Part shown: positions 2-16,401 of the stretch, piece after piece | Layout: each line of letters starts with the position of its first letter | How positions within the stretch are numbered: position 1 is the stretch's first letter | IMG/VR virus record: IMGVR_UViG_3300024057_000013 | Coordinates: 1-22,874 of that record | Source: a virus | Direction: 5' to 3' (one strand) | DNA length: 22,874 nt | Notes under the pieces: generated by a model | The model's database searches: none | Told to the model about the DNA's origin: nothing | What the model saw: only the letters and a program-made list of their open reading frames with translations | Made by a program: the position numbers and the translations under genes

Positions 2-385
2 CGCCGCGTTCACGCCACCCTCCTTGAGCGATATCCAGACAAATATATTGAGGCACCATGGATTGCGTACCGTCATCACCGTACCGGCCACCGGGTACGC
101 TTTTGTCAGCCCGATGGTCTCTACATAGACATCGAAAAAGGGCTCCTCGTGATTATCGAAGCGAAATTGAAGCATGGCTCGAAAGCATGGGAACAGCTCA
201 ATGACCTATACTACCCTTGCATTGCAAAGATTATGGAGGGGGGGAAGTTATTTGAAATCCGCCTAATTGAGGTTGTCAAGTGGTTTGATCCCTTGACATT
301 TCGAGAAAGGCCCACCGCTCTGTGCTCACATATTCACGAATGTGCCCCGATGCGTGGCGGCCTCTACAATGTTCACCTGTTATGA
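2..385 (+). CDS. PD-(D/E)XK nuclease-like protein, 5'-truncated
   Basis: The frame is open from the left edge, so the N-terminus is missing; 127 residues remain. The readable part has a PD pair at fragment residues 37-38, followed 15 residues later by an EAK triplet (53-55) in a predicted beta strand, with a helix after it (KAWEQLNDLYYPCI). This spacing and the hydrophobic strand before E-x-K fit the PD-(D/E)XK nuclease core seen in Holliday-junction resolvases, TnsA-like and repair nucleases. Family assignment is inference from this motif only. The stop overlaps the next start as ATGA at 382-385, so the protein is probably made together with the terminase and may act in genome processing during packaging or in resolving replication branches. 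The 7-G tract of a repeated motif lies inside it at 238-244. Confidence 0.6.
   Translation, partial: RRVHATLLERYPDKYIEAPWIAYRHHRTGHRVRFCQPDGLYIDIEKGLLVIIEAKLKHGSKAWEQLNDLYYPCIAKIMEGGKLFEIRLIEVVKWFDPLTFRERPTALCSHIHECAPMRGGLYNVHLL
236..247 (-). repeat. C7 motif, exact copy 1
   Basis: On the minus strand it reads CTTCCCCCCCTC, with C as the next base. It lies in the nuclease-like gene, where the plus strand codes E-G-G-K. Confidence 0.8.
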
Positions 386-1866
386 ACAAGATTACACCGC
401 TTGAAGCCGTACAGCTCGGAGCGGCCGACCCTCTCTTTTTCGCCCGGTACTTTTTCCCGAAGGCGATCAAACAGCAGCCTCCGCCGTTCCACCGGGAAAT
501 ATGGACGGCGCTGGTCAATCCGGCCAACCGCTATGTCGCCATTGAAGTTTTTCGTGGTGGCGCGAAAACTACAACCTTACGTGTCTTCACGGCTATGCGA
601 ATCGCCTATGGGTTGTCGCGCACTATCCTTTTTGTTTCAGCGTCGCAAAATCACGCGATCAAGACCGTCGAATGGCTTAAGAAGGCAGTTGAGTATAACC
701 GGCCTTTTGCACAAACTTTCGGCCTTAAGCGCGGAGCGAAGTGGTCATCTGAAGATATTGAAATACTGCACACGACAGAGGGCCATACGACGCGAGTTAT
801 CGCGCTCGGTATCACTGGTCAGACGCGCGGAATTAATATCGATGATCACCGGCCCGACCTGATTGTTGTCGACGATCCCTGCGACGAAGAAAACACGGCT
901 ACGCCCGAACAGCGGTACAAAATATCCAATTTATTTTTCGGCGCGCTTGAGAAGTCATTAGTCCCGGCGACCGAAAACCCACACGCCAAGATGGTTCTGC
1001 TTCAAACGCCACTTCACGGGGAAGACCTTGTTGAGTCGGCGTTGCGTGATGCGCAATGGACTTCGCTAGAATTCGGCTGCTTTCTTGGCAACGAGGAAGA
1101 CCCCCTTAGCATCTGGGAAGAGCGTTTCCCTAAAGTTGAGCTGATGGAGCAAAAAGCAGCGCATGTCGCGCGTAATCAACTGTCATTATGGATGCGTGAA
1201 ATGGAGTGTAGAATCACGGCGACCGAAACTTCCCTGTTCAAGGCGGAGTGGCTCAACTACTGGGATATGCTGCCCGACACCGGTATGCGCGTATTTATGG
1301 CTATAGACCCTTCCCCCCCTCTGAGCGAGGAGGCCCGGCATAAGGGTCGTAATACGGACCCGCAGGTGCTCGCGGTTATCGGCTTCTACCAAGGTAATAC
1401 GTACCTGATCGAGTATTCTATGGGGCGCGATCAGGAGCCCGAGGATACCGCGGCCGAGTTTTTTCGGTTGGCAGCGAAGTGGAAGCCGCGTATGGTGGGT
1501 GTAGAGTCGATCGCGTATCAACGGACACTTGCGTATTTTCTTCGTGAGAAAATGCGCCAAACAGGTCGTCACTATTATGTTCATGAGATCGATGACAGAC
1601 GTAAAAAACGGGATCGAATTACACAGGCGCTGGTGGGGCGAGCGTCTAATGGAACTCTGTATGTTCATAAGAGTCATGTTGATTTTATTCAACAGTATAC
1701 GGATTACCCTGACGTTTCGCATGATGACGTCTTGGATGCGGTGTCGATGGCGATTAGATTGGCTGGGGCTTCTGCCGACAGCAATATAATTGAAGGCGAA
1801 TTTGAAAGACTGGCCGACGACGAAAAAATGATACCTGACTTGCCTGAGTGGAGGGCTTCCCCATGA
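382..1866 (+). CDS. terL: Terminase large subunit
   Basis: Motor ATPase and nuclease that cuts concatemeric DNA and pumps it through the portal into the prohead. With the start at ATG 382 it has 494 residues, a normal length. A Walker-A-like FRGGAKTT lies at about residues 57-64 and a Walker B strand ending in VVDDP at about 157-166. The C-terminal RNase-H-fold nuclease shows its three acidic strands: MAIDPS (about 305-310), GVES (about 373-376) and HDDVLDA (about 447-453). In-frame GTG 322 and ATG 340 lie upstream, but ATG 382 makes an ATGA overlap with the preceding gene, like its neighbours, so I chose it. The portal gene follows with another ATGA overlap. No small terminase is visible in the window. 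It contains one copy of the C7 motif at 1310-1321. Confidence 0.95.
   Translation: MNKITPLEAVQLGAADPLFFARYFFPKAIKQQPPPFHREIWTALVNPANRYVAIEVFRGGAKTTTLRVFTAMRIAYGLSRTILFVSASQNHAIKTVEWLKKAVEYNRPFAQTFGLKRGAKWSSEDIEILHTTEGHTTRVIALGITGQTRGINIDDHRPDLIVVDDPCDEENTATPEQRYKISNLFFGALEKSLVPATENPHAKMVLLQTPLHGEDLVESALRDAQWTSLEFGCFLGNEEDPLSIWEERFPKVELMEQKAAHVARNQLSLWMREMECRITATETSLFKAEWLNYWDMLPDTGMRVFMAIDPSPPLSEEARHKGRNTDPQVLAVIGFYQGNTYLIEYSMGRDQEPEDTAAEFFRLAAKWKPRMVGVESIAYQRTLAYFLREKMRQTGRHYYVHEIDDRRKKRDRITQALVGRASNGTLYVHKSHVDFIQQYTDYPDVSHDDVLDAVSMAIRLAGASADSNIIEGEFERLADDEKMIPDLPEWRASP
1310..1321 (+). repeat. C7 motif, exact copy 2
   Basis: CTTCCCCCCCTC, then T; inside terL just after the first nuclease acidic strand, read as S-P-P codons TCC CCC CCT. 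Confidence 0.8.
1850..1855 (+). promoter_or_regulatory. Shine-Dalgarno site that sets the portal start
   Basis: GGAGGG lies 7 nt before ATG 1863. It favours this ATG over the in-frame GTG at 1848, which would overlap the site itself. Confidence 0.7.
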
Positions 1867-3785
1867 GTCATAAAGAAGTTAAATTCGGTACCCCCGAGCA
1901 TCGAACATTATTAGACGCTTTACTCGATCGCCTATCGCTCTCCCGGGAAAAAATGTCACAGCGATATGCGACGTGGAAAGACGCTGAAGAGCGTTTTCTC
2001 GCATACATTCCGGATACGAAACCGAACAAGGATCGTAAGGATTTAAAAAAGTCAGGAATATTCTCTTTTGGCACGATCGAAATTCCCTACAGCTATGCGG
2101 TCGCCCTTACAGCACATACCTACTGGACTTCAGTCTTTCTCTCCCGTAATCCCGTGTTCCAATATCAAGCCCGGCATGGCGAACCACAAATGAACGTGCA
2201 AGCTGTAGAATCCCTGATGGACTATCAATACACCGTGGGGGGCATGGCTACCCCTTTATATACATGGTTGCTTGATCCGGCCAAGTATGGCTTCGGTGTT
2301 ATCGGCTCGTATTGGGAGGAGGAGGAAATTGTCGTCTCTGAGATAGTCGAACAGCCGGAGACATATTTAGGGATTCCTCTGCCGGGCTCCACTAAAAAAG
2401 TTCGCGAAACGAAGCGCATGCCCGGGTATGTAGGCAATAGACTGTATAACGTCCGTCCACAGGACTTCTTTCCGGACCCCCGGGTACCTATCTCCCGATT
2501 CCAAGATGGTGAGTTCGTCGCTCGCTATACTGAAGTGGGCTGGAATACTATCGTTCGTAGGCACCAAAAAGGCCTGTATTTCAACTTTGAAGAGCTCGAA
2601 CGCCTGCGGGCCCAAGTTTTTGACCGCGAGAAGGGCTCTGAACAGATCACGTTACCCGAGGCCGCAACCGAATATCCACTCGGTCCTCCGCGCGATGACA
2701 AGGCCAAACGCCGGGATCGCCCTTTTGTGGGTCTATATGAGATATTCGTCGAGATTATCCCGAAGGAGTGGAAGCTAGGTACAACCGAATGGCCCGTTAA
2801 GTGGGTTTTCACGCTCGCAGAGAAAGATATCATTATAGGGGCCCAGCCTTTAGGGCTGTACCACAATAAATTCCCGTTTTCGGTTCAGGAGTACGAACCA
2901 GACGGATATTCGCTATTTAGCCGCTCATTAATGGAAGTCATGGGGCCTTTGCAAGATACGCTCTCGTGGCTCATCAATTCGCACCTGCATAACGTCAGAA
3001 AGGCTATTAACGACCAATTTGTCGTCGATCCTTCCCGAATCGTCATGAAAGACATGACAGACCCCAATGCGGGCCGATTAATCCGTGTGAAGCCCGAATA
3101 TTACGGAATGCCGACAAAAGACGCCGTAACACAGCTTCAAGTGGTCGATATCACTCAAGGACACCTAAAAGACGCGACTGTCATCACTGATCTCATCGAG
3201 CGTGTGACAGGCGTCAACGACAACCTGATGGGGGCTGTCAATGAGGGTGGTCGGAAGACCGCCACGGAGATTCGCTCAACGACCTCGTTCGGAATTAACC
3301 GTTTAAAGACCAATGCAGAGTATATGAGTGCTATGGGTTGGACTCCTCTATCGCAGATGCTGTTGCAGAATACGCAACAGTTCTATGATCTGGAGCGTCA
3401 ATTCAAGATAGCAGGCGATCTCAATGGCCCTCAGGGCGCGTTTGCCGAAGTAACGCCCGAATTAATACAAGGGTTCTTTGATTACACGCCTGTAGACGGT
3501 ACACTGCCGGTCGATCGCTTTGCTCAGGCTAATCTGTGGCGAGAATTCATCCGAGATATTGCTGCGAACGAGACTTTAGCGGGCGCATATGATATCAAGG
3601 CCATTATTGCCCATATGATGCAACTCTCAGGGGCAAAGAACATCAAACAATTCGAGATTAAAGTGACCCCAGACGAGCAGGTAGCAGAGCAGACGCGGGC
3701 TGGGAATTTAGTGCCTATTACCGGGCAAAACAGCGCCGGGGAGCCGCAAGCTCCTCAAGTAGGTGGAGTCGGACCTACAGGATAA
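1863..3785 (+). CDS. Portal protein (head-tail connector)
   Basis: The portal forms the dodecameric ring at one capsid vertex through which DNA enters and leaves, and it nucleates head assembly. The evidence is position directly after the large terminase, 640-residue length, and composition typical of podovirus-type portals: an N-terminal helical segment (SREKMSQRYATWKDAEERFLAYIP), a wing-like region with IPYSYAVALTAHTYW, a central stretch GPLQDTLSWLINSHLHNVRKAIN (about residues 360-382) that looks like the long stem helices, then VTGVNDNLMGAVNEGGRKTATEIRS, a motif common near the C-terminal crown of such portals. The start at ATG 1863 is chosen by its ribosome-binding site and the ATGA overlap with terL. 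The C-terminus is a Gly/Pro/Gln-rich tail. Family identity is inferred from these features, not from a search. Confidence 0.9.
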   Translation: MSHKEVKFGTPEHRTLLDALLDRLSLSREKMSQRYATWKDAEERFLAYIPDTKPNKDRKDLKKSGIFSFGTIEIPYSYAVALTAHTYWTSVFLSRNPVFQYQARHGEPQMNVQAVESLMDYQYTVGGMATPLYTWLLDPAKYGFGVIGSYWEEEEIVVSEIVEQPETYLGIPLPGSTKKVRETKRMPGYVGNRLYNVRPQDFFPDPRVPISRFQDGEFVARYTEVGWNTIVRRHQKGLYFNFEELERLRAQVFDREKGSEQITLPEAATEYPLGPPRDDKAKRRDRPFVGLYEIFVEIIPKEWKLGTTEWPVKWVFTLAEKDIIIGAQPLGLYHNKFPFSVQEYEPDGYSLFSRSLMEVMGPLQDTLSWLINSHLHNVRKAINDQFVVDPSRIVMKDMTDPNAGRLIRVKPEYYGMPTKDAVTQLQVVDITQGHLKDATVITDLIERVTGVNDNLMGAVNEGGRKTATEIRSTTSFGINRLKTNAEYMSAMGWTPLSQMLLQNTQQFYDLERQFKIAGDLNGPQGAFAEVTPELIQGFFDYTPVDGTLPVDRFAQANLWREFIRDIAANETLAGAYDIKAIIAHMMQLSGAKNIKQFEIKVTPDEQVAEQTRAGNLVPITGQNSAGEPQAPQVGGVGPTG

Positions 3786-3791
3786 TCAAAG

Positions 3792-4106
3792 ATGGATGGG
3801 GAAGATAGACCAGTTGAAGTGGAAGATGAAGACGTCAAGGCGGCGCGTATCATCGTAGACAATTTAGACCCCCTGTTAAAACAGGAGGGCTGGAATTATT
3901 TTATGGCAATGCTCGAAAAGCAGATTAATGTCCGTAAGGGGCGGATGCCAGTCGCTTCCGATGGCTTCGGGGCCGTATTTAAGAGCGAATTTGAAAAAGG
4001 GGAGATTGCGGGTCTCATGTTAGCTCGAACGCTTGCGCCCGGCGCTCTTGGGGCTGCTGTTGAGTTGCTTACCGAGATGAAAAAGGAGGAAGAAAATGTC
4101 GAATAA
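3792..4106 (+). CDS. Small acidic helical protein between portal and scaffold
   Basis: A 104-residue protein with an acidic N-terminus (about residues 1-16), a middle region with VRKGRMPVASDGFGAVFKSEFEKGEIAG and a C-terminal amphipathic helix rich in Glu/Lys. It has no signal peptide or membrane segment. I do not recognise a named family. Its position between portal and scaffold, and its 11-nt overlap with the scaffold gene, suggest a head-assembly accessory protein, but that is inference. Translation starts at ATG 3792, 6 nt after the portal stop, with an AGGA upstream. Confidence 0.75.
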   Translation: MDGEDRPVEVEDEDVKAARIIVDNLDPLLKQEGWNYFMAMLEKQINVRKGRMPVASDGFGAVFKSEFEKGEIAGLMLARTLAPGALGAAVELLTEMKKEEENVE

Positions 4107-5016
4107 CGCAGAAACTGTTGCAAATGCGCTCAAATCGGAAGATAATCCCGCTGTGCCCACTCCTGAGCTTGATCCGGATACAGCACAGTTACTAGAACTC
4201 TTCGAGGATATTGAAGAGACTCCCCCAGAGGAACCGGCTCCGGCCGAGACCCCTGTTATAGAGGACGGTCCAGACGACCCTCCGGTAGACACAGCTAGTC
4301 CGCCCGAGCCGTCACCCGAATCAGGTAGCACGCCTGCACCTGTAGCCTCTCCGTTAGAACTGGAAGCACCGGCCGTTGTGCCCGCTCCCCCAACTGACGA
4401 ACAGCCTACCGCGACTGCCGAAGAGCAAGTGAAACAACGGCAGGAGTGGCGGACTGATGCCCTCTCAAAGATTGAGCAGCATTATGCGACTCAACTTGAG
4501 GGGGATGAGATGCGAGATATGCTTTTGGCTGAGCCTGAAAAGGCCCTACCTAAGATTTTCGCCAACGCTTATATGGATATGTACGACTCCCTGATGGGAG
4601 GGGTCACTCAGGCCATGCCGCAGCAAGTTCGGTCGGTTATGAGTCAACAGGAGAAGACAGCGAAAGATCAGGCTGATTTCTTCGCGAGATGGCCTAAACT
4701 CGAAGCGGCGTATGGTGAAAACGCAGAGCAGCAGGAAACGATTAATCGTACGATTAAGTCTTATCGTGCTATGAATCCGAATGCTACGATGCCACAAGCT
4801 ATCGAGGAAGCAGGCGCAATGGCGATGGTTGCATTGCGAATCCCTGTCGAGGTCGGTGCGAAGGATACAGCTTCCCCCCCTCCTACGGCAGACAAGGGAT
4901 TCACACCAGCCGCGCCCGGTGGAGGAGCTCAGATTTCTAGCCCAGCCCCCGCGCCCAAGAAGTTAAACGAATTCGAGACATTAGCGCAAGAATTCATTGA
5001 TGATGGTGAGGACTAA
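4096..5016 (+). CDS. Probable scaffolding protein
   Basis: A 306-residue protein, strongly acidic and Pro/Glu/Ala-rich over about residues 15-110 and therefore probably disordered. It is followed by a helical region (about 115-250) with stretches such as QRQEWRTDALSKIEQ and QEKTAKDQADFFARWPKLEA. The C-terminus is another Pro/Ala linker plus a short acidic helix. An acidic, disordered-plus-helical protein immediately upstream of the major capsid gene is the usual form and position of a phage scaffold, which templates the prohead and then leaves. No protease motif is visible. A very strong ribosome-binding site (AAGGAGG, 6 nt from ATG 4096) fits high expression. The start overlaps the preceding gene by 11 nt. 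A C7 motif copy sits at 4871-4882. Confidence 0.75.
   Translation: MSNNAETVANALKSEDNPAVPTPELDPDTAQLLELFEDIEETPPEEPAPAETPVIEDGPDDPPVDTASPPEPSPESGSTPAPVASPLELEAPAVVPAPPTDEQPTATAEEQVKQRQEWRTDALSKIEQHYATQLEGDEMRDMLLAEPEKALPKIFANAYMDMYDSLMGGVTQAMPQQVRSVMSQQEKTAKDQADFFARWPKLEAAYGENAEQQETINRTIKSYRAMNPNATMPQAIEEAGAMAMVALRIPVEVGAKDTASPPPTADKGFTPAAPGGGAQISSPAPAPKKLNEFETLAQEFIDDGED
4871..4882 (+). repeat. C7 motif, exact copy 3
   Basis: CTTCCCCCCCTC, then C; near the 3' end of the scaffold gene in the same codon phase as copy 2. Confidence 0.8.
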
Positions 5017-5019
5017 GTT

Positions 5020-6201
5020 ATGCCTTCAATAGCAGGCCTTCGTGGTACAGGTGATTGGGCCACCGATGAACGCCCCAAAAATTTCCGGGAGATGATCCTT
5101 TGGCGTAATCCAAACGGCTCAGCTCCTCTCACGGCAATGCTGTCGAAAATGAAGTCCGAGTCGGTGGACGATCCGGAATTCGCGTGGTGGGAAGAAGAGC
5201 TGAACTCTGTTCGGCTAACAATGAATTCGACGGGCGCGTCGGCAACTTCTACCGCTTTCGGTCTGACCTTGGGTGGCTTGGATGTAGTTCCGGGCGATAT
5301 CCTCATGGTCGAGAAGACGGAACTCGCCGCATACGACAACGAGCTGGTTGAGGTTTCCTCTGTCACTTCCGACACCGCAATCGTGGTGAAGCGCGGAGCG
5401 GCAGGATCAACGGGTGCCAACACAGGCGCGAGCGCCTTGCTGTTGAAGATCGGGAATACCTACGAGGAAGGTAGCGTGTCTCCGAACACCTCAACTCGGA
5501 ACCCAACCAAGTTAATCAACTTCGCCCAGATTTTCAAGACTGCTTACCAGATCACCAACACCGCACGTATCACGCATACACGTACGGGCGATCCGGTCAA
5601 AAACGACAAGAGGCGGAAAATGTTCGACCATTCCGTTGCTCTGGAGTGGGCTTGGATGTTCGGTCAGGCTTTCGAGGACACTTCGGGCGTTAAGCCGAAG
5701 CGGTTCACCGGGGGCCTTCGTGAGTTCATTACCACGAACTCGAAGATTTACACCACAAGCCCGACTGAGGACACGTTCCTCAACGACGTCTTTCAGGTGT
5801 TCGATTACGATGCAGGCTCCGCAGGCAACGAGCGTATCGTACTCGCCGGTAACGGATTCTTAAACGAGCTGAACAAGCTGGCGCGGAATTCCAGTAGCAC
5901 TCGCATCAACTTCGACGGTACGGTGAAAACCTACGGTATGCAGTTGCAGCGTTGGGTCTTCCCGCAAGGAACACTGTTCGTGCGGACGCATCCGCTTATG
6001 AACACGCATGGTAAGTTTACCAATAGTGCGTTTATCATCGATCCGTCGGCATTAATTTACCGGCATATGCGAGATACGCGCATGGAAGACAATATCCAAG
6101 CGAACGATGCTGACTCCCTGAAAGGGCAGTGGTTGACCGAGGCGGGCCTAGAAATCCGGCACGAGAAGACCATGGCCTATCTGGGCAACTTCATCATCTA
6201 G
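5020..6201 (+). CDS. Major capsid protein, SU10 type
   Basis: Main shell subunit with the HK97 fold; 393 residues. The N-terminal region (RNPNGSAPLTAMLSKMKSES, then VDDPEFAWWEEEL) is characteristic of the SU10 major capsid protein group (DUF5309-like), which I recognise by sequence. A small beta-rich insertion (about residues 85-145: GDILMVEKTELAAYDNELVEV and following) is also usual in this group. Further matches are the EEGS segment, the ITHTRTGDPVKNDK segment and the C-terminal MAYLGNFII strand. It follows the scaffold by 3 nt and is followed by a strong intrinsic terminator, which would cap the abundant head mRNA. It ends in TAG. The GAGGA site 7 nt before the ATG supports this start. Confidence 0.95.
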   Translation: MPSIAGLRGTGDWATDERPKNFREMILWRNPNGSAPLTAMLSKMKSESVDDPEFAWWEEELNSVRLTMNSTGASATSTAFGLTLGGLDVVPGDILMVEKTELAAYDNELVEVSSVTSDTAIVVKRGAAGSTGANTGASALLLKIGNTYEEGSVSPNTSTRNPTKLINFAQIFKTAYQITNTARITHTRTGDPVKNDKRRKMFDHSVALEWAWMFGQAFEDTSGVKPKRFTGGLREFITTNSKIYTTSPTEDTFLNDVFQVFDYDAGSAGNERIVLAGNGFLNELNKLARNSSSTRINFDGTVKTYGMQLQRWVFPQGTLFVRTHPLMNTHGKFTNSAFIIDPSALIYRHMRDTRMEDNIQANDADSLKGQWLTEAGLEIRHEKTMAYLGNFII

Positions 6202-6226
6202 CGGGTATTCCTGCTACTTTAATCAA

Positions 6227-6253
6227 GGGGGGGCTTTTGGCTCCCCCGTTTTT
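6227..6253 (+). terminator. Intrinsic terminator after the capsid gene
   Basis: The stem is GGGGGGGC (6227-6234) with GCTCCCCC (6240-6247): 8 pairs including one G-U, with a 5-nt loop TTTTG. A G and then TTTTT follow. It lies 25 nt after the capsid stop and just before the AAGGAGA ribosome-binding site of the next gene. No clear promoter is seen between it and ATG 6266, so partial read-through into downstream genes is likely. Confidence 0.85.
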
Positions 6254-6260
6254 AAGGAGA
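6254..6260 (+). promoter_or_regulatory. Shine-Dalgarno site AAGGAGA
   Basis: It lies directly against the T-tract of the terminator, 5 nt before ATG 6266, in the only sizeable gap of the first half of the window. Confidence 0.6.
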
Positions 6261-6265
6261 TCGCT

Positions 6266-6882: not shown

Positions 6883-7547
6883 AAGAGCTCCGTCTTGTTA
6901 TCTGTATACCATCGACCTCGACATGGCTAGCGGAGTTCGGGATGTCCCTTGTCTTCCTGACAAGCCATTTATCAGCGACTTCGACTATCAACGAAAGAAC
7001 GGTGCAGTACACCGTCCACAACAAGCGGGGCAGTATTCTTGCCAATATGCGGCAGGATATGGTCGCCGCCGCCATCAAGAATCATGCTACCCACCTTCTA
7101 TTTATCGATAGTGATCAGACTTTCCCCGCGGATATAGCCGAAAGGCTGCTCGCTCACAAGAAGCAGGTTGTAGCCTGCAATATCGCCACTAAAATGATCC
7201 CGTCCTCCCCGACGGCCCGGCAGAAAAGCGCGGCTGCGGAGGGTTCGCCTGTTTATACCTCGACATCTTCCCCCCCTCTCGAACGCGTTTGGCGAGTCGG
7301 TACGGGAATCATGATGATCGATCTTAATATTTTCAAGCGTGCCGCCCTAGAGAAAGGGCCATGGTTTACGCAGCACTGGAACCCTAAACTCGCTAGCTAT
7401 GTGGGTGAGGATTGGGCTTTTTGCGAGGACCTTGAGCGCGCTGGGGTGAAAATCTACGTGGATCACCGCGTTTCTCTGGAAATTGGGCATCTTGGTGTCC
7501 TGAATTACGGGCACGATTTGATTCCCGTGCTGTCGGAGACTGCATAA
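6879..7547 (+). CDS. GT-A-fold (family 2-like) glycosyltransferase
   Basis: A probable nucleotide-sugar transferase of 222 residues. It starts with a beta strand ending in IPS, has an RGSILANMRQDMVAAAI segment like the conserved Arg/Asn helix of phage GT2-like enzymes, and a DSD (DxD metal/nucleotide-sugar) motif at residues 77-79 after the strand HLLFI. Further on come GTGIMMID (141-148), a GEDWAFCEDLERAG acceptor/base region (176-189), and a late His in EIGHLG (204). The family pattern is clear, but substrate and acceptor cannot be read. Lying between head genes and tail structural genes, it may glycosylate a virion protein or modify a host or phage surface sugar (inference). It is coupled at both ends: ATGA before, TAATG after. 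It contains a C7 motif at 7267-7278. Confidence 0.85.
   Translation: MKELRLVICIPSTSTWLAEFGMSLVFLTSHLSATSTINERTVQYTVHNKRGSILANMRQDMVAAAIKNHATHLLFIDSDQTFPADIAERLLAHKKQVVACNIATKMIPSSPTARQKSAAAEGSPVYTSTSSPPLERVWRVGTGIMMIDLNIFKRAALEKGPWFTQHWNPKLASYVGEDWAFCEDLERAGVKIYVDHRVSLEIGHLGVLNYGHDLIPVLSETA
7267..7278 (+). repeat. C7 motif, exact copy 4
   Basis: CTTCCCCCCCTC, then T; inside the glycosyltransferase gene, again read as TCC CCC CCT. Confidence 0.8.
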
Positions 7548-8058: not shown

Positions 8059-8367
8059 ATGGCTCAGACTGACCTCCTTATTGCGGGCAAGGATGCAGCG
8101 CACCAGCTTGCAGGACAGGGGAGTGCTTGGGTGCAGGATATGGGGGTCTACGCCCGGCGCATTGAAATTCGTACCGTGGGGGCTATTACTACGATTTACA
8201 AGGGGTGGGCCCCGTATGGTAGTGCGGAAGCGGCGGCTGTTTGGATGATCGCTAGGCTCATTTTAGACGCTACGACAGAGCTGGATGTTACCGACGGTAT
8301 TGCCGGTGGTGTCTCGAATACGTTCTCTTTTACTTGGACTGGGAGGGCTGGTCATGCATACTCCTGA
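8059..8367 (+). CDS. Small conserved phage structural-region protein
   Basis: A 102-residue protein of a type I have seen in structural clusters of tailed phages. It has an IEIRTVGAITTIYKGWAPYG strand region, then GSAEAAAVWMIARLILDAT, and ends in a beta-rich segment closing with WTGRAGHAYS. Related proteins end similarly in an N/T-W-x-x-R-x-x-x-x-Y-S pattern. A virion role is inferred from context. It starts immediately after the previous stop and overlaps the next gene by 14 nt. Confidence 0.75.
   Translation: MAQTDLLIAGKDAAHQLAGQGSAWVQDMGVYARRIEIRTVGAITTIYKGWAPYGSAEAAAVWMIARLILDATTELDVTDGIAGGVSNTFSFTWTGRAGHAYS
8341..8347 (+). promoter_or_regulatory. Shine-Dalgarno site that sets the start at 8354
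   Basis: GGGAGGG lies 6 nt before ATG 8354. It supports that ATG over the later in-frame ATG 8369 and over further-upstream starts. Confidence 0.6.
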
Positions 8368-8524
8368 TATGAAAACTTGGGTGTTCAAATTCAAGCAGGA
8401 TGGTAAGGTAGTTACGAAACAGTTTATGGCCTCGTCGAAAAGCGAGGCTAAGCGCATGGTGGGGGCTTTTAATATTACAAGTGGGCCAGAGCTTTTGAAG
8501 CCCAAAACCAAAAAGGTGAAGTAA
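8354..8524 (+). CDS. Very small basic protein
   Basis: A 56-residue, Lys-rich protein (TWVFKFKQDGKVVTKQF, then MASSKSEAKRMVGAF) ending in KPKTKKVK. The predicted beta-beta-helix order with a K-S-E-A start to the helix resembles small AP2- or integrase-arm-like nucleic-acid-binding folds, but the match is only in secondary-structure pattern. Many small phage proteins have the same shape without a known role. It overlaps the upstream gene by 14 nt and ends 1 nt before the next start. Confidence 0.65.
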   Translation: MHTPDMKTWVFKFKQDGKVVTKQFMASSKSEAKRMVGAFNITSGPELLKPKTKKVK

Positions 8525-8525
8525 A

Positions 8526-11018
8526 ATGGCAGCTATAGCAACAGCCGATATCTCGATTGACGCCGCTGGCGCAATCCGCTGGACGGGGGCCGCGACCACA
8601 AATAGACACTCTGTTCTTGAATTCATTCAATTCCTGATGGACAAGCAGGATGATGGTCAGGCGGTTGGTAACGATCTGCTTGATATCACGGTTGATACTG
8701 CTTTCGATAGGTCTACCGATCAGATTTTAAATTTGAACGCTCCTTTCAATGTAGATGACACCTTCATAAATCATCTATACAACGGCTCGATCTCCCAAAC
8801 AGAGCCCGGAGTAGGCGGTGAAACGCTCTATTCCGGCTTGAATATCATTGGCCCGGTCGAGGCCGGGACCGAATTCATGGTAATTCAGGATGGTAAGGTT
8901 CTTCCTTCCTTCTGGGGGACAGGCATTAATCCAGAAGCAGCACCGTCATTAGTATTCTCCAGACAGTTGATTAAAACCAAGTTCGCAGGAGCACAAATTG
9001 ACGGTCAACGAGTTACAGTTCTCGCTAGAGAACTGGGCGATCAATACCGACGCTTTCCTGCAACGCTCGGTACCGGTAACTCTGTTGCTGCGATCGGTAA
9101 CGGTGCGGATATCTTCAATGCTACGGTTGATGCGACCATTGCGGGCTGGACTACGATCAGTAATGTCGAAGGCTTTCAGGAGATCAATATCGACGGCACA
9201 GGGGCTACCGGGCAGGAGTTTTATTCTCAGTGGAATATCGGTATTCAAAGCGTTAATCAGACCTACGAGAGATCAAAGTGGATTTCTCAGCGCGCACATA
9301 TCGCAGACGCTACCGCTGGTACACCAACAGGGGCGGACTTTGTTATCGATAATGCGACTATTGTCGGACAATCTCAGTCGTTCATACCTCTAACGGGTAG
9401 TGAAAAGCTAGTCGAAGTCAGAGCCAATATTAAAATTTTAGCAGGGACTCCAACCGGTACGGTTTACTGTGAGCTCTGGGATTCAGACGATGCTGCCGCG
9501 CAGCTTGCCGAGCCGATCGGTGGTGTGTTAGCAAGATCAGAGCCTATACTTGCTAGCGCGTTTACAACGACCTATGAGGAAGCGATTTTTCGCTTTAATA
9601 AGCGTAACCCTTCAACAGGCGCGGATCAGCTTGCGGGCCTAACGCTTGCCAACGCTGAGTATTTTGCAGTTTTTCGCCACTTGGAAGGTACAGCGGGCGC
9701 GAACTTCTCCTTACAAGGGGCATCGACAGATCAGGATGCGACTATGAATACCGCTTCTGATACCGCGGCCGTATGGACTGCGGTCGCAACCGCAGATATC
9801 GATATCACGGTCAAGAGCTGCCCTGTTATCCACGACATTCCCGGGGAGCTATTTCAGGGTATCAATGTCGAGGTAGGCTTTGATGGTGAGATTGGTGCAA
9901 CAGGCCTTAGCGAGAATGATATTGTAACGTGGGGAACCAAGCTTACTTATGATGCTTTGTCTGCTGGCCCCTTTGTTCCGGGTGAGTATATCCAGATTTT
10001 CGTGCAGGCGACCGCTGTGATCAGGTCCGGAGCCAAGGTTCTGTATGATGATGGTGTGGACGAACTGGTTGTCGTTTTAGATACCCTGAGCGTCGTTATT
10101 GATAACGATACATTCACTTCCGTTAGGGGCGCTGCCGAAACCACGGCAACGGTCAATGTCACGATTGTCGACAATGACAAGTCCGGCGGTGAAGGAATCC
10201 TGCTTGCCAAGGACGATAATGGTACTACGGGTGAGCTTTACCTACAGGTTCTCTCCGGTGTAAATCCTGTTGATAACAATGTTATACGAGCTGATGATGT
10301 TACGGCAGACCCCTTACTGGATTTGGCTCTTGCTACAGCAGTCTTGAACACTAAAACTGTAAACCCCGAATTCCTAGGAACTTCCACGGGCTCCAATATC
10401 ATTGGTACTTATGGTGTAGGTTTTGAAGCTGCGGATGTTGGCTCCTCAGATCGTTTCACCGACCTTGCAGACGCTTCTCGCGTACCTCCGAACAACGTCA
10501 CGTTTACAGTCTCTGGACTGGTCAGTGGTGAGGATCGGGTCCTCGTTGGGCCTCGAACTGGTACTACGCTTAACAAAGCTCAAATGGCTACCGATGTTAC
10601 CTTAAGTGGCGTAACTGAGACTTTAGTCCAGACAAGTGCCGCGGTTCCTGCGGGTACTCCGACAAGTGGTACTGGCGGTGATACGACACGCCTGCGCGTT
10701 GAGCTTGATACCGGGATTTATCGTAGAATTCAATACGACTCGTTCGCAGTCAATGATTTCACGATCACGGTCGGCCCTGACGATGATTGGACAGGTATTA
10801 ATGTGGCGACAGCGCCCAAGGATGTTTTCGTGGCTTACATCGATAAGCTGGCAGGTGCTACGAGTGAGTCCTATACGGCGATTCATACAATCGATGTTGA
10901 TGTCCTCGTACGCGTACGTGATGGGGGAGCAACGCCAATTAAGACTTTTGAAGCGCAGGCAGCCCAGTTCCTTGCAACGCCTGTAACTGTAGCGGCAGTA
11001 CGAACTAGTGATGCCTAA
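8526..11018 (+). CDS. Large beta-rich virion structural protein
   Basis: An 830-residue protein without signal peptide or TM segments. The N-terminal part (about residues 1-240: ATADISIDAAGAIRWTGAAT, DDLLDIT-like and SERSTD-like segments, then FWGTGINPEAAPSLVFSRQL and VTVLARELGDQYRRFPATLG) belongs to a structural family that I recognise from environmental and marine phages. The middle holds small beta modules (ILLAKDDNGTTGELYLQVLSG, about 558-578). The C-terminus has YIDKLAGATSESYTAIHTID and VDVLVRVRDGGATPIKTFEA, also typical of that family. Likely a virion surface or tail-associated protein; exact location unknown. Its stop overlaps the next start as TAATG. AAGGTGA upstream of ATG 8526 serves as ribosome-binding site. 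Confidence 0.85.
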   Translation: MAAIATADISIDAAGAIRWTGAATTNRHSVLEFIQFLMDKQDDGQAVGNDLLDITVDTAFDRSTDQILNLNAPFNVDDTFINHLYNGSISQTEPGVGGETLYSGLNIIGPVEAGTEFMVIQDGKVLPSFWGTGINPEAAPSLVFSRQLIKTKFAGAQIDGQRVTVLARELGDQYRRFPATLGTGNSVAAIGNGADIFNATVDATIAGWTTISNVEGFQEINIDGTGATGQEFYSQWNIGIQSVNQTYERSKWISQRAHIADATAGTPTGADFVIDNATIVGQSQSFIPLTGSEKLVEVRANIKILAGTPTGTVYCELWDSDDAAAQLAEPIGGVLARSEPILASAFTTTYEEAIFRFNKRNPSTGADQLAGLTLANAEYFAVFRHLEGTAGANFSLQGASTDQDATMNTASDTAAVWTAVATADIDITVKSCPVIHDIPGELFQGINVEVGFDGEIGATGLSENDIVTWGTKLTYDALSAGPFVPGEYIQIFVQATAVIRSGAKVLYDDGVDELVVVLDTLSVVIDNDTFTSVRGAAETTATVNVTIVDNDKSGGEGILLAKDDNGTTGELYLQVLSGVNPVDNNVIRADDVTADPLLDLALATAVLNTKTVNPEFLGTSTGSNIIGTYGVGFEAADVGSSDRFTDLADASRVPPNNVTFTVSGLVSGEDRVLVGPRTGTTLNKAQMATDVTLSGVTETLVQTSAAVPAGTPTSGTGGDTTRLRVELDTGIYRRIQYDSFAVNDFTITVGPDDDWTGINVATAPKDVFVAYIDKLAGATSESYTAIHTIDVDVLVRVRDGGATPIKTFEAQAAQFLATPVTVAAVRTSDA

Positions 11019-11506
11019 TGTCTGTATGGCGAATAACGCTGAGCCTGACGTTTGATATAACCTCAGAGGACTTAAACTCGATCATCGAGTTTCCTGTTAT
11101 ACGAAATGGCCCAAATGGTAATCTGCTCTCAGAGCGGATTGCCCTCGATACGGTAATGGGCCGTGATCGCTTAGATCACTTAATCGCATGGAAAGCCGCA
11201 AATCCCCCGGGCTCCCGGTGGTCCGTTAATGGGGCCACTGCCAAGAGCGGCGTTGATGGGGAATTCGTACTACCTAGTACTTTCAGGAGCGATGCTGTTG
11301 CCCTGACAAATGCTGATGTTGGTAGCGTTATCCGGATTCCTCCCGGCCAGATGCCACCAGCCACCCGGGGTCATTACAAGATTCAAAGTCGGGAAGGGCC
11401 AAATGAAGTCACTGTCGAAGGTATCTTACCTGTCGCCGCGACCGACTTAACCTTCGATATTGATGCGCAGGCCGAGTTTCTAGCCACGCTTATCAGTACA
11501 GTATAA
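11018..11506 (+). CDS. Partner protein between the two large structural genes
   Basis: A 162-residue protein with a beta-rich N-terminus (WRITLSLTFDIT), a helix around DRLDHLIAWKAANPPG, and two short beta segments near the end (VGSVIRIPPG, HYKIQSREGPNEVTVEGILP). I do not recognise a family. It is tied by TAATG junctions to both 830-residue-class genes, so I infer a structural or assembly partner for one of them. Confidence 0.75.
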   Translation: MSVWRITLSLTFDITSEDLNSIIEFPVIRNGPNGNLLSERIALDTVMGRDRLDHLIAWKAANPPGSRWSVNGATAKSGVDGEFVLPSTFRSDAVALTNADVGSVIRIPPGQMPPATRGHYKIQSREGPNEVTVEGILPVAATDLTFDIDAQAEFLATLISTV

Positions 11507-13995
11507 TGGCTACCACTGTTGCAGATGACCAGAACAACATTACAACCCGAGATACGCTAGTAGGTTTCGGGCTTGGCAATGTTGGCGGCCCTAATGCGGC
11601 TATTCCTAATCCCCGAGTAGAAGGCACAAACGCTAACGATGCCCGTATGAATGGTACGGGCTTGGGGGGAGGCGGGTTTAACGCTGGCTCTACTGATGTC
11701 AGTGTCAAACACGCCTTTCAATGGGTACAGACCCTCGATGATGTCAATACGCAGGCGCTTGATGGCTGGCGTTTCCGCTTGAGTTCCAACACCAATGGCA
11801 CGACCAACTACGATGAAATTACGGTAGGTGGTGGCGACACCGCTAACCTGCGGAGAAAAGGCTATAGCTCTTTTTGCTGCAACGGTTTACGGGATGGAGA
11901 AAACGTCAACGGTACACCTCCCGCCGCGACCGCCGTAATCTCGTTTTCCATGCTGGCAGATCACCTATCGAACAGCACTCGTTTCACATGGTTCATTGAC
12001 CAGACAAAACGAATGAGCAGTATGACGCTTACCGCCGGGACCGTCAGTGTTCCCGGTACGTCTGCCGATGTTGCCGCCAATGACGTTACCAATGGCCGCG
12101 GCTCATGGATGACCGCCGAGGGAATAAATTTCTTACTCGGCAAGGTTATTATCGGTGATGTAACAGCCGCTACCGACAGCCATTTCGCGGACACCCTTGA
12201 AACATGGGTATTCAGGGGCCAGCCTGTCAAAAACGATTTCCACGGCATAGAAACCGTGGGCGGGACTGGCACCAACGCAGTCACGTTTGGCACTGAGGTT
12301 GGTAGTGGTATAACCGCCGTAGGTGTCGCAGGTAATTTATTCAAGGCAGAAACTCCGACAAGCGCATGTTTTAGCGTCACCAACACCGATGCTGATATTA
12401 CGGCCAAATACTTTGGTTGCCAGTTTATTAACAGCCTGTTTGAAGATCATTCCTTCGCAGCCTGGGAAGATAATGGTACTGTTTTTACAGACAACCGCCG
12501 CAACTTCAATATTGCTGGTGGTTCGACTCCACTCTGGCCTGTTGCCGAGGTAGCAGGTGACGCATGGTATATCGGGGATAGGGATAGGGGCTTTTTTGGT
12601 CTTGAAGTTGATCTTACGACTCTGGGTGTCGGTTCTCCTGTACTGGCCTACGAGTATTGGGATGGATCAGCGTGGGTGGCACTGCCCTCTTTAGTTGATG
12701 GCACAAGCGGGCAGACTGCTGACGGTAGGATTACATGGGCCAAACCGGCTGATTGGGCCTCAACTGCCGTGAACGCAATCACAGCCTTTTATGTTCGGTG
12801 CAGGTTAGTCTCAGGTTCGTTTAGCACAAACCCGACCGCAGCAACTGTGCGTCCTTTACACGCGGGCTTAATGAAGTGGGAACAGGCCAACGCCGATGCA
12901 ATATCCTGTCTGTTTTCAGGCTGTGGCCCGATTAGTGTTCGTAACGGGGCGCTGTTTCGTAAAAACATCATTACCGATAGCAACGCTGGTGATGTGGGGG
13001 CTTTAGATTTAGGAGAGGCTGATCCCACCGTCGACTCAGTACGGGACTTGCAGATACAGAACAACCCCGCCGCTATCTTGCTTAGGTCTGTTACACGATT
13101 CTTTAACGTAGGGCCCGCGGTAGATAAGGGCGCGGGACAGGTCGGTATCCCCGATACGGCCCACGGCTTTGTTACCGGGCAGGAAATCCTGATTGCGGGC
13201 ACAACAAACTATAATGGGGTGCAGACGGTCCATTCCAGCACGACCGTAAATGAAATTGTAATTACAGATACGTTCGTAGCTGAGACCTTTGCTGCCACGG
13301 ATTCGGCAGTTCTCAACTCTACGTTTAACTTTCGCAATATCGTCTTTGCAGGTAATACAAAGGAGGTTCGTGTTGACTTTCCAGCGACTTCCACAGTTAC
13401 AATCAACGTAGTGGATGGGGGTTCGTCGCTGGTAATAGGCGATATCGTCAACGTAAACACCTCGACGATCGTTATTAACAATGCGACAGTGACAACTCTC
13501 GTCAATGTCAAGGACAACAACGCCGCGAACCTGATCAATGCCCGGGTAATCCTTGAAGCGGCTGACGGTGCTGGCGACCTGACATTTGAAGACGTCGTTA
13601 CTATTACTCGGGTCTCCTCTACCGCAAGCGTGGCCCATACGGCTCATGGTATGGCTAACGGTAACAAGGTCGTGATACGCGGTGCGGATCAGCAGGAATA
13701 TAATGGGGTCTTCGCCATTACCAATGTTACTGCCAATGCCTACGACTATACTGTCAGTGGCACACCAGCCACTCCTGCGACAGGTACTATCACGGAATCC
13801 GGGGTTATACTGGAAGGCCTAACAGATGCCAGCGGTAATATTTCAGATACCCGTACCATTGTGGTCGATACCGCATTAAAGGGCTTTGTCAGGAAGGCCT
13901 CGGCTTCTCCCCGATTTAAATCGTTCACCTTAGCCGGGACAACTGATAACCTTGTAGGCTTGACTATCAACGTGAGGATGATTCTAGATGAGTAA
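11506..13995 (+). CDS. Large multi-domain beta-rich virion protein
   Basis: An 829-residue protein with no signal peptide. About residues 362-450 form a beta-sandwich pattern (YEYWDGSAWVALPSLVDGTS, then WAKPADW and FYVRCRLVSGSF) that I know from phage baseplate and tail surface proteins, possibly carbohydrate-binding-like. Two copies of a module of about 70 residues follow, near 528-605 and 699-770. Each has AHG(F/M)-x-(T/N)G, then a strand ending in I-x-G, then YNG, and a T(D/V)-x(2)-F/T closing strand. The second ends in the common SGTPATPATGTIT. The N-terminal 350 residues are unassigned, Gly/Asn/Thr-rich and beta-like. Inferred role: surface appendage or receptor-proximal structure. It is coupled by TAATG upstream and an 8-nt overlap downstream. 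Confidence 0.85.
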   Translation: MATTVADDQNNITTRDTLVGFGLGNVGGPNAAIPNPRVEGTNANDARMNGTGLGGGGFNAGSTDVSVKHAFQWVQTLDDVNTQALDGWRFRLSSNTNGTTNYDEITVGGGDTANLRRKGYSSFCCNGLRDGENVNGTPPAATAVISFSMLADHLSNSTRFTWFIDQTKRMSSMTLTAGTVSVPGTSADVAANDVTNGRGSWMTAEGINFLLGKVIIGDVTAATDSHFADTLETWVFRGQPVKNDFHGIETVGGTGTNAVTFGTEVGSGITAVGVAGNLFKAETPTSACFSVTNTDADITAKYFGCQFINSLFEDHSFAAWEDNGTVFTDNRRNFNIAGGSTPLWPVAEVAGDAWYIGDRDRGFFGLEVDLTTLGVGSPVLAYEYWDGSAWVALPSLVDGTSGQTADGRITWAKPADWASTAVNAITAFYVRCRLVSGSFSTNPTAATVRPLHAGLMKWEQANADAISCLFSGCGPISVRNGALFRKNIITDSNAGDVGALDLGEADPTVDSVRDLQIQNNPAAILLRSVTRFFNVGPAVDKGAGQVGIPDTAHGFVTGQEILIAGTTNYNGVQTVHSSTTVNEIVITDTFVAETFAATDSAVLNSTFNFRNIVFAGNTKEVRVDFPATSTVTINVVDGGSSLVIGDIVNVNTSTIVINNATVTTLVNVKDNNAANLINARVILEAADGAGDLTFEDVVTITRVSSTASVAHTAHGMANGNKVVIRGADQQEYNGVFAITNVTANAYDYTVSGTPATPATGTITESGVILEGLTDASGNISDTRTIVVDTALKGFVRKASASPRFKSFTLAGTTDNLVGLTINVRMILDE

Positions 13996-14362
13996 AAGTA
14001 ACGGGGCCGAGCCCGATCTAATGGTCGATGGTTTTCATACATTAGACCTTGTTGAGCCGAATCCCCCGAAGATTACTTGGGGCAAAAAGTTTTTGCTGAT
14101 GGATGATGCCGCTAAGATTCTCTATTTACAGCGGCTTGCCTCCTCAATGAATCATGCGGCCTACTTGATTCAGAACGAGCGTAACCAATTGCTTGACCTA
14201 TGCCGAAAACAGGAGAAGCAGATTAAGCTGCAACAGGAGGCCGTGGAGAAAAACAATCTTATGCTGCAAACGCAGGTAACAGAGATGAACGAGAAAAGGC
14301 AAATATTCAATACCGAGATAGCTCGATTAAATAAGGTTATTCGAGATGGCGATAACAATTGA
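13988..14362 (+). CDS. Coiled-coil protein downstream of large structural gene
   Basis: A 124-residue protein. Residues 1-35 are extended (HTLDLVEPNPPKITWGKKFL). Residues about 40-118 are almost entirely helical with heptad spacing (RKQEKQIKLQQEAVEKNNLM and onward), so it is predicted to form an extended coiled coil. It has no TM segment. GAGGA lies 9 nt upstream of the ATG. It overlaps the previous gene by 8 nt and the next by 17 nt. It may be a chaperone or stalk for neighbouring structural proteins (inference). Confidence 0.8.
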   Translation: MSKSNGAEPDLMVDGFHTLDLVEPNPPKITWGKKFLLMDDAAKILYLQRLASSMNHAAYLIQNERNQLLDLCRKQEKQIKLQQEAVEKNNLMLQTQVTEMNEKRQIFNTEIARLNKVIRDGDNN

Positions 14363-14825
14363 TTTCCCAACCTTGGTAATCAGCGTTCCGCAAGCGGATA
14401 TGACGTTCGTAAGCGGGACCTTTTATCGCCTGCCGACCGAGACTAAATTCCGGGCCGACGTCAATGCCCTGATGGCTAATGTAGACGGCATCGTGTTCGA
14501 TGATTGCATTACGCACAACACCGAAGTTACCGTGGCCGGTGTAACCTACGCCCGATTCATCGAGCTGATTAATGGTTATAGTGTGCAGATGACCCCCGAT
14601 TCCCAGTTCACAGTCGAGCTGACCGAGTCGAATAACAACCTACACGATGTCGCAGCGGGGGCCCTAGTACAAAATCAGGTGCAGGTTATTACTACCAACG
14701 CAGCCGGGCTTATTTCTGTCTCTACCGGCTCTGGCGTTACACCTCAAGACATACTTGACATAGCCGCGGCGGTGTGGAACCACGTCAAGGCCCTAACCTT
14801 CAACCTGTGGTTTGGGAACCGATGA
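14346..14825 (+). CDS. Conserved minor structural protein
   Basis: A 159-residue protein. It starts with a beta strand (ITIDFPTLVISVPQADM). The central core HNTEVTVAGVTYARFIELIN, followed by GYSVQMTPDSQFTVEL, is a family signature I recognise from many phage structural clusters; biochemical function is not known to me. The C-terminal helix (PQDILDIAAAVWNHV) is also typical. The 17-nt overlap with the preceding gene and the ATGA overlap with the downstream micro-ORF at 14822 show tight coupling. Likely virion-associated. Confidence 0.85.
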   Translation: MAITIDFPTLVISVPQADMTFVSGTFYRLPTETKFRADVNALMANVDGIVFDDCITHNTEVTVAGVTYARFIELINGYSVQMTPDSQFTVELTESNNNLHDVAAGALVQNQVQVITTNAAGLISVSTGSGVTPQDILDIAAAVWNHVKALTFNLWFGNR

Positions 14826-14896
14826 CCACCACTTCCCCCCCTCCTTGGTTGATTGACCCTATCTTTTTTCTATACCCTATGGGTGCTATATGGTAG
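14822..14896 (+). CDS. Possible 24-residue leader peptide before the lysis genes
   Basis: ATG 14822 overlaps the preceding stop as ATGA, and 24 codons run to TAG at 14894-14896, 10 nt before the probable endolysin start. The peptide is hydrophobic and Pro/Trp-rich (SPPPWLIDPIFFLYPMGAIW). It would carry ribosomes across an otherwise untranslated gap and includes the C7 motif. It is too short to show homology and may not be a real protein. Confidence 0.3.
   Translation: MTTTSPPPWLIDPIFFLYPMGAIW
14832..14843 (+). repeat. C7 motif, exact copy 5
   Basis: CTTCCCCCCCTC, then C; in the gap between the structural block and the endolysin, 64 nt before GTG 14907. Confidence 0.8.
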
Positions 14897-14906
14897 AGTC
14901 CGTTTC

Positions 14907-15245
14907 GTGGCAACTCTAGGCCAAAGGCAGCGAAAGTTTACGTGGAAGCTCGCAGAGCTGATTATATGGGCTTTTGAGCATGGTTATGAGTTGACCTTCG
15001 GGGACGCATATCGTGATCCTCGTCTCCATGGCAAGGTGGGTGAAAATAAAGCCTACGGCCATCCCAAGTCTAAGCACAAGCAACGCTTGGCAGTCGACTT
15101 AAATCTATTTATACAGGGAAAGTATCAGAGAAGTACCGCAGCGCACGTACCTATAGGTGTCCATTGGGAGTCTATGGGTGGTACGTGGGGCGGCCGCTTC
15201 CCGGTTAGGGATGGCAACCATTATTCATGGGATGAGACTCGGTAA
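14907..15245 (+). CDS. M15-family peptidase endolysin
   Basis: A cell-wall endopeptidase or carboxypeptidase that cleaves peptidoglycan peptide links to release progeny. It has 112 residues from GTG 14907. Zinc-site pattern: SKHKQRLAVDL gives His57 and Asp64, and GNHYSW gives His105; Arg36 in GDAYRDPRLHG is the usual conserved Arg. There is no wall-binding domain and no signal peptide, so a holin is needed, as found downstream. Start choice: the family usually begins M-A-T-L-G-Q-R-Q, which matches GTG 14907; an in-frame TTG 14853 would add 18 hydrophobic residues. Only a weak ribosome-binding site (GGTAGAG) precedes the GTG. Confidence 0.9.
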   Translation: MATLGQRQRKFTWKLAELIIWAFEHGYELTFGDAYRDPRLHGKVGENKAYGHPKSKHKQRLAVDLNLFIQGKYQRSTAAHVPIGVHWESMGGTWGGRFPVRDGNHYSWDETR

Positions 15246-15249
15246 CCGT

Positions 15250-15591
15250 ATGATTGAATCTTATTTAGAGTGGCTGGCGTGGATTCCGGCGCACCCGATA
15301 CAAGCGCTTATTCTGCTGGTGATTGAATTTTTGGTAATGATGAAAATCTACCATAAGTTCAATGAGAACAAAATCTTAAAGATAGTCTTCGGGGCAATTT
15401 TCCAGCCCCAAAATATTGTCGGCAATGTGTTTGTTGTTAGTTGGATTGGCTGGGAACTGCCGCATGAGTACACTACTACATCCCGCATGAAACGCTGGAA
15501 GACGCTCAATCCAGATAGGCACTGGTGGCGATTCAAGTTCGCAACCACGATGTGTAATATTCTTAACTGGGCTGACAAGGAGCATTGTTAA
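15250..15591 (+). CDS. Small single-TM protein in the lysis cassette
   Basis: A 113-residue protein with an N-terminal membrane helix (about residues 14-32, HPIQALILLVIEFLVMMKIY) and possibly a second hydrophobic stretch (NIVGNVFVVSWIGWELP). The basic C-terminus runs RMKRWKTLNPDRHWWRFKFA and ends in ADKEHC. The Trp/Arg-rich end closing with a HC dipeptide is a pattern I recall in small proteins next to phage lysis genes, without a proven function. It may be a holin partner or antiholin. ATG 15250 starts 4 nt after the endolysin stop; upstream in-frame ATGs at 15211 and 15232 would overlap the endolysin and are less likely. Confidence 0.8.
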   Translation: MIESYLEWLAWIPAHPIQALILLVIEFLVMMKIYHKFNENKILKIVFGAIFQPQNIVGNVFVVSWIGWELPHEYTTTSRMKRWKTLNPDRHWWRFKFATTMCNILNWADKEHC

Positions 15592-15990
15592 ATGTGGAAT
15601 TTTGTAAAAGGTATATTTGGCGCTGGTCAAAGTGGATCAGATAATGTAATGAAAGTCGCTGCTGGTGTCGGCGGCTGGATTGATAATTTAAAGCTGACCG
15701 ATCAGGAGAAGCAGACGTTCAACGGCAAGATGGTTGAACACTATTCGGCCTTTATGGCATCAACGGTTAGCGAGAACACCGAGCGATCAAGAACGCGGCG
15801 AGACATAGCGTTATGGATTATCAAGCTCGAAGCCTTCTTCCTTGTATTCTCGCTAGTGATGTCTGGATGGAAGCCCGATTTGGCCGAGTACGCATATAAG
15901 ATTGCAACCGATTCACCGTGGGGATACCTAACACTGGGTGTCGGTGCGTTTTTCTTCGGTGCCCATTTAGTTCGCGCTACGAAGGGTTAA
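15592..15990 (+). CDS. Holin, GTA/three-TM-like
   Basis: A 132-residue protein. The N-terminal half is amphipathic and helical (GKMVEHYSAFMASTVSENTE). The motif RSRTRRDIALWIIK precedes the first clear TM helix (about 75-93), and a second follows at about 108-128 (WGYLTLGVGAFFFGAHLVRA). The R-R-x-I/P turn before the first TM and the overall order match the holins of proteobacterial phages and gene transfer agents (GTA_holin_3TM-like). The proposed role is to permeabilise the inner membrane and so release or activate the M15 endolysin encoded 350 nt upstream. AAGGAG lies 9 nt before the ATG. Confidence 0.8.
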   Translation: MWNFVKGIFGAGQSGSDNVMKVAAGVGGWIDNLKLTDQEKQTFNGKMVEHYSAFMASTVSENTERSRTRRDIALWIIKLEAFFLVFSLVMSGWKPDLAEYAYKIATDSPWGYLTLGVGAFFFGAHLVRATKG

Positions 15991-15993
15991 ATT

Positions 15994-16401
15994 ATGGCTA
16001 ACGCACTCTACGACACAGGCCGAAACGCCTTTCTACTAGGTAATATTGCGTGGGTTACGGATGATATCCGGGGCGTTCTGGTTGATACCGCTTTATATAC
16101 AGTTGATTTAGTCAACCACGATTTTCTCGATGACATAGCCGTAGGTGCCCGGGTTGGTCCTATTACGGCTCTGACAGGTAAGTCAGGTGCTACGGGTATA
16201 GCCGATGCAACCGACTTAATTTTTGCAAATGTAACGGGAGCGACGGTTGAAGCTCTCGTGCTATATAGGCATACAGGTGTGGAGTCGACCTCACAGTTAA
16301 TCGCCTATATCGATACGGCAACTGGCCTTCCAGCTACACCCGGAGGGGGGGATGTTGTTATCCTCTGGGATAATGGGGCCAACAAGATTTTTAAATTGTA
16401 A
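15994..16401 (+). CDS. Conserved small phage structural protein
   Basis: A 135-residue protein with a signature I recognise from several phage structural clusters: MANALYDTGRNAFLLGNIAW, VLVDTALYTVDLVNHDFLDD, VEALVLYRHTGVESTSQLIA, and the end GDVVILWDNGANKIFKL. The fold is predicted all-beta. Function is unknown; position next to the fibre gene suggests a tail-fibre or tail accessory protein. The ribosome-binding site AAGGG is 7 nt from the ATG. TAATG links it to the next gene. The antisense C7 motif variant lies at 16343-16354. Confidence 0.85.
   Translation: MANALYDTGRNAFLLGNIAWVTDDIRGVLVDTALYTVDLVNHDFLDDIAVGARVGPITALTGKSGATGIADATDLIFANVTGATVEALVLYRHTGVESTSQLIAYIDTATGLPATPGGGDVVILWDNGANKIFKL
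16343..16354 (-). repeat. C7 motif, one-mismatch copy 6
   Basis: On the minus strand it reads CATCCCCCCCTC, with C as the next base. It lies near the 3' end of the small structural gene before the AEAFG protein. Confidence 0.65.

Follow-up and report, generated by a model that had tools for sequence, protein, structure and literature searches.

Dispersed strict short words in the genomes of lytic phages, such as the Cluster O repeats and the nick motifs, have no agreed explanation. Cluster O mycobacteriophages (Corndog) carry strict 17-bp repeats in 34 copies, located both within and between genes and following no orientation rule (PMC4351075). This repeat is a palindrome found mostly at the same positions in five phages, and it is unexplained in a phage that is not evidently temperate (PMC4351075). 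The stoperators of Cluster A phages, with 24 sites in L5 and 34 in Bxb1, sit mostly between genes, follow the direction of transcription and have a known repressor as their binding protein (PMC3029335). In tf-like and phiKMV-like phages, nick motifs are confined to a single strand (PMC3517423, PMC11780129), and the over-representation of Chi in lambdoid phages is strongest in those without recombinases of their own (PMC3784561).

Here we describe a word, CTTCCCCCCCTCC, whose closest parallel is the Cluster O repeat: both are strict words in many copies, genic and intergenic, without an orientation rule. In contrast to that repeat, the word is asymmetric, lies mostly in genes, and differs in sequence and position in a sister phage. 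It resembles the Cluster A stoperators in being an asymmetric word of about 13 bp, with dispersed copies whose number (22) falls in the stoperator range of 20–34 and a consensus that differs between related phages. However, its sites are mostly genic (7 of 22 are intergenic, although this is an enrichment) and unoriented, and on both counts it falls outside the stoperator class. Like the tf-like and phiKMV-like nick motifs, it is a strict, dispersed, largely genic word of enigmatic function for which density seems to count over place, but those motifs are one-stranded whereas this word occupies both strands, which separates it from one-strand nick sites. Chi is likewise an asymmetric dispersed word over-represented in some phage genomes, but it is 8 bp long and read by the host, whereas the word described here spans 10–13 bp in a phage with its own recombination genes.

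Copies of the word in the phage genome

The window, by which we mean the whole stretch of DNA that was analysed, is a complete virus record of 22,874 bases (IMGVR_UViG_3300024057_000013). A longer contig, G002 (IMGVR_UViG_3300024518_003475; 49,495 bases), spans the entire window at 99.94% identity, a 12.5 kb contig (G001) overlaps the window, and a fourth contig of the phage, 4.3 kb long, carries the same DNA polymerase. We give G002 coordinates in window orientation, a window position being the G002 position minus 1173. None of the 13 differences between the window and G002 falls inside a copy of the word, which excludes an assembly error in a single record as the source of the copies. Head and tail genes run rightwards and replication genes leftwards, the latter encoding a DNA polymerase with a fused uracil-glycosylase domain, a primase-like DUF3987 protein, a Sak4-like annealase and a PD-(D/E)XK exonuclease. 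The DNA polymerase with the uracil-DNA-glycosylase domain at its N-terminus (L061:13923-16286) aligns over its whole length in many relatives. No integrase or repressor was recognised with Pfam and PHROGs among the proteins searched.

A sequence-only reading of the window had reported five exact copies of the 12-mer CTTCCCCCCCTC and a one-mismatch copy on the minus strand, and all six are present where it placed them (Table 1). Allowing up to two mismatches brings the number of matches in the window to 7, whereas 100 shuffles averaged 1.78 and never exceeded 6. That reading was also right that every copy has seven Cs and that no run of eight exists, on either strand, that serine-proline-proline is encoded at three of the sites, and that one copy lies in the gap before the lysis genes, where the endolysin-like ORF has a listed TTG start at 14853. 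Two C7 runs lie outside the motif (window 6227 minus and 19700 plus); thus seven Cs are found in all copies, but a C7 run does not by itself make a copy. One of these runs is explained by a terminator-like hairpin at window 6215-6260, 3' of the major head protein gene, in which runs of G7 and C5 are followed by Ts.

Table 1. Copies of the word located in the window, with the corresponding G002 positions
Feature	Window position	Strand	G002 position	Encoded at site	Context
Exact copy CTTCCCCCCCTC	236..247	-	1409		Intergenic, upstream of the large terminase gene and opposite its direction
Exact copy CTTCCCCCCCTC	1310..1321	+	2483	PSPPL	Large terminase gene (TerL)
Exact copy CTTCCCCCCCTC	4871..4882	+	6044	ASPPP	ORF preceding the major head protein
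Exact copy CTTCCCCCCCTC	7267..7278	+	8440	SSPPL	phrog_1574 gene
Exact copy CTTCCCCCCCTC	14832..14843	+			Gap separating an ORF that ends at 14825 from the endolysin-like ORF
Variant copy CATCCCCCCCTC	16343..16354	-	17516	GGGD	Strand opposite the phrog_644 gene

Across G002 there are 19 exact copies of CTTCCCCCCCTC and 22 sites that share the invariant 10-bp core TCCCCCCCTC, 15 of them reading exactly CTTCCCCCCCTCC and 7 differing at one outer position, while no 13-mer of G002 stands at exactly two mismatches from CTTCCCCCCCTCC. The core is all-or-none, with 22 exact occurrences against three one-mismatch neighbours, a number that does not exceed chance. Sites occur about once per 2.2 kb of phage genome, 13 on the plus strand and 9 on the minus strand, and their spacing overall is no more even than random. 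CTTCCCCCCCTCC has no dyad symmetry (it is not an inverted repeat), the copies have no consistent hairpin or fold, and Rfam gave no match in G002, in the related contig G007 or in the stretch of the sister contig G004 that was searched. The tail genes at window 8059-14825 (G002 9232-15998) hold no copy; they are up to 84% identical to those of G029, against about 46-64% for the head genes, as if they had been acquired recently.

The excess of the word is real and non-random, and the sequence-only claim that it lies far above chance holds with greater force in the 49.5 kb of G002 than in the window. Dinucleotide shuffles of G002 gave means of 0.015 for CTTCCCCCCCTC (19 seen) and 0.13 for the core (22 seen). 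When synonymous codons were redrawn in 300 runs, the total averaged 6.1 copies with a maximum of 8, compared with the 19 observed. Because this procedure left intergenic DNA in place, and with it 6 exact intergenic copies, 6 of the mean of 6.1 are untouched copies, and the genic comparison is between about 13 copies observed and about 0.1 expected. The excess over a codon-preserving shuffle on which the sequence-only reading had staked its case is therefore present, the genic copies vanishing once the codons are redrawn. Under an order-3 Markov comparison the G002 core scores about 1e-38, and its excess tops that of every other word across 30 related genomes. In most other relatives even the best word does not go beyond about 1e-7; the exceptions are words of other kinds, at 1e-20 in G007, 1e-12 in a Desulfofustis phage and 1e-10 in G014.

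Genic copies and the word of a sister phage

Six genic sites (G002 2483, 8440, 17516, 31282, 33324 and 42685, of which 33324 is in the DNA polymerase) align with homologues without gaps. At the TerL site, DPSPPLSEE in this phage corresponds to DPAPPMSEE in a homologue, and homologues read DP[A/V/T]PP there, ungapped; the phrog_1574 site is likewise ungapped, and at the phrog_644 site GGGD replaces the NGGD of a homologue, again ungapped. At the G002 sites 1007 and 6044 conservation is too poor to tell insertion from substitution, and several other genic sites have no homologue for comparison. Where homologues align clearly, these alignments indicate that the genic copies came by substitution and not by insertion, the word being written in where the protein tolerated the substitution.

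The nearest relative, with 70% terminase identity, is a single phage represented by three contigs (G003, G004 and G083), two of which, G004 and G083, share a 3.7 kb overlap at 99.97% and combine to 47.6 kb. This sister phage has its own word, TTGCCCCCC[A/T], in 8 copies against 0.57 expected, 5 on the plus strand and 3 on the minus strand, and in its exonuclease and VWA genes the alignments at the sites are likewise ungapped. Sites in the two phages lie mostly in different genes, or at different places within shared genes. Counts for the class TT[C/G]CCCCCC[A/T] are 21 in G002, 8 in the sister phage and no more than 1 in any of 29 further relatives, some of which are incomplete, but these counts are descriptive since the pattern was picked after both words had been seen; the test proper is the count of each phage's own word. 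Exact CTTCCCCCCCTC is absent from 42 other related records. The comparison with relatives that the sequence-only reading called for thus cuts both ways, the nearest relative keeping a similar word in excess and most relatives lacking the word. Elsewhere in the viral collection, the 15-mer is found in 13 other contigs with one copy apiece, which is a chance pattern, and sharing of the word with other viruses was rejected on that ground. Among the matches listed for the 14-mer of the sister word, several copies occur only in its own phage.

Words of other kinds were seen in more distant phages. G007 (IMGVR_UViG_3300048591_000707; 48% TerL identity) carries 12 exact copies, on both strands, of an unrelated 18-bp word, GAGCCCCACCCGGACCCA (for example L085:1781-1798), that is absent from every other record of the viral collection. 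Where its copies fall in called ORFs, the encoded peptide is almost always [LMV]GPGGA[QHR]. The copy in the DNA polymerase appears in the alignment as an insertion and has inverted repeats in its flanks, so this word, at first taken for a parallel, was set apart; it is perhaps a short mobile, REP-like element. In the Desulfofustis phage (L257, OP947158), about ten dispersed long palindromes related to TGCTATGTCCCAAATTGGGACATAGCA (for example at 243-270) lie apparently mostly between genes and look like operators of a phage regulator. In G014 (L089-L090), words of the GTAGTGTTA type (for example at 22165 and 23784) lie nearly all on the plus strand and are over-represented at about 1e-10.

Readings of the word and a candidate reader

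The sequence-only reading had left open whether selection acts on DNA or on RNA. The use of both strands and of several reading frames, the intergenic copies, the origin by substitution and the excess over codon shuffling argue for selection on DNA rather than on protein. The peptides encoded at the copies vary (SPP, LPPL, EGGK, GGE and RGG). Genic sites are balanced with respect to transcription (8 with, 7 against), which disfavours an RNA-level signal, and the Rho- or pause-related role that had been proposed for a C-rich transcript was rejected for this reason. The further suggestion of a packaging-related mark finds no support. With ORFs called by a simple script, from which eight dubious small ones were taken out by hand, 7 of the 22 sites are intergenic although intergenic DNA makes up 7.4% of the genome (P = 8e-4).

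We consider it very probable that the word is a selected DNA recognition site of some kind. Our preferred reading, to which we give slightly less than even weight, is that CTTCCCCCCCTCC, with its core, is a dispersed, orientation-independent recognition site for a putative sequence-specific DNA-binding protein, probably encoded by the phage, and that it acts in DNA metabolism. Selection would keep the sites at about one per 2.2 kb and, we infer, the word would label the genome through its density, in the way of Chi or nick sites, instead of regulating particular genes; that the reader is phage-encoded is a weak inference. The intergenic enrichment could hint at a regulatory role, which would count against a function in DNA metabolism.

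Such a role is the basis of the alternative that fares best, in which a phage protein bound to dispersed asymmetric 13-bp sites silences transcription as a repressor or roadblock, in the manner of stoperators. The length of 12-13 bp, the asymmetry, the number of sites (22) and the differing words in relatives match L5 and Bxb1, and the intergenic sites fit as well. However, two thirds of the sites are genic and show no orientation bias to transcription, which makes this explanation unlikely. The proteins searched also yielded neither integrase nor repressor, although one may have escaped recognition. We regard as quite unlikely that the word is read by the host, either as a Chi-like site of a recombination nuclease or as a decoy for a DNA-binding protein. 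Phages can over-represent the Chi of their host (PMC3784561), and different hosts would account for different words, but Chi excess is strongest in recombinase-free phages, and this one has both an exonuclease and a Sak4-like protein of its own. In addition, a scan of bacterial genomes for the 15-mer gave scattered single matches among the matches listed, and of the 25 genomes tested for enrichment none was clearly enriched: none went beyond its reversed control except one archaeal bin (27 vs 13). Geobacter-like genomes were rejected as word-enriched, being rich in poly-C with equal counts in the reversed controls.

Nicking or processing by a phage enzyme was among the roles first proposed. 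A strict word dispersed in mostly genic DNA agrees with it, and tf-like words also differ between relatives (PMC3517423), but nick sites of the T5, phiKMV or tf kind are disfavoured since those words lie on one strand only, compared with 13 plus and 9 minus sites here, and no nicking enzyme was identified in the phage. What survives is a variant that is cut on both strands, which we hold to be improbable. That the copies have no function and are left over from a short mobile insertion or from biased mutation has been largely refuted and is very unlikely. Their identity, and the word of G007 that aligns as an insertion, speak for it, but the alignable copies are free of gaps, which led us to reject a mobile insert for this word, there are no decayed intermediates, and a bias toward C runs would not fix both flanks. 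Least likely of all is a lagging-strand priming template on whose C run a phage primase begins G-rich primers: sites on both strands, a C6-C7 core in both phages and a primase-like gene would suit it, but at roughly one per 4.5 kb on each strand the sites are sparse for priming, the word is missing from all relatives that have this primase family, and the sites used by known primases are much shorter.

For the preferred reading of an orientation-free site in DNA metabolism, a candidate reader on weak evidence is a basic, HTH-like protein of 181 aa (G002 37634-38179, outside the window), encoded between the PD-(D/E)XK exonuclease and Sak4-like annealase genes. Its residues ~31-104 give weak, concordant winged-helix matches in Pfam, PDB and NCBIfam, and its predicted structure is too poor to use. 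The same slot in the sister phage encodes a 146-aa protein whose model has three helices at the N-terminus, then a basic linker, and a long helix at the C-terminus; Foldseek found nothing significant for it. The two proteins share no significant similarity, and neither has relatives beyond its own phage in the viral collection. Among relatives, only these two phages have an HTH-like protein in this slot; others hold different small proteins, and in ctLwi270 an HTH annotation adjoins the exonuclease and Sak4 genes without lying between them. Since the two phages make up a single clade, the correlation is just as good for other genes private to it, including a pair encoding a MoxR/GvpN-like AAA ATPase and a 592-aa protein with a VWA-like metal-binding motif (L061:4673-7268), which among the relatives compared is common only to the sister phage. 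The link between the slot protein and the word is a lead, not a result. If the 181-aa protein is the reader, the role of the site would lie in recombination or replication of the phage, with loading or pausing at the site as one possibility. It is rather unlikely, on present evidence, that the words are private Chi-like tags, read by the HTH protein together with the exonuclease and Sak4, with word and reader co-diverging between the sister phages.

In these two phages the word is asymmetric and orientation-free, came into unrelated genes by substitution and differs between close relatives. With it, a constraint at the DNA level is seen reshaping protein sequence at scattered places. The small candidate gene in the recombination operon opens the question of the reader to a direct binding test. 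If the words do prove to be private tags, the recombination or replication machinery of each phage would tell its own DNA from that of a rival.
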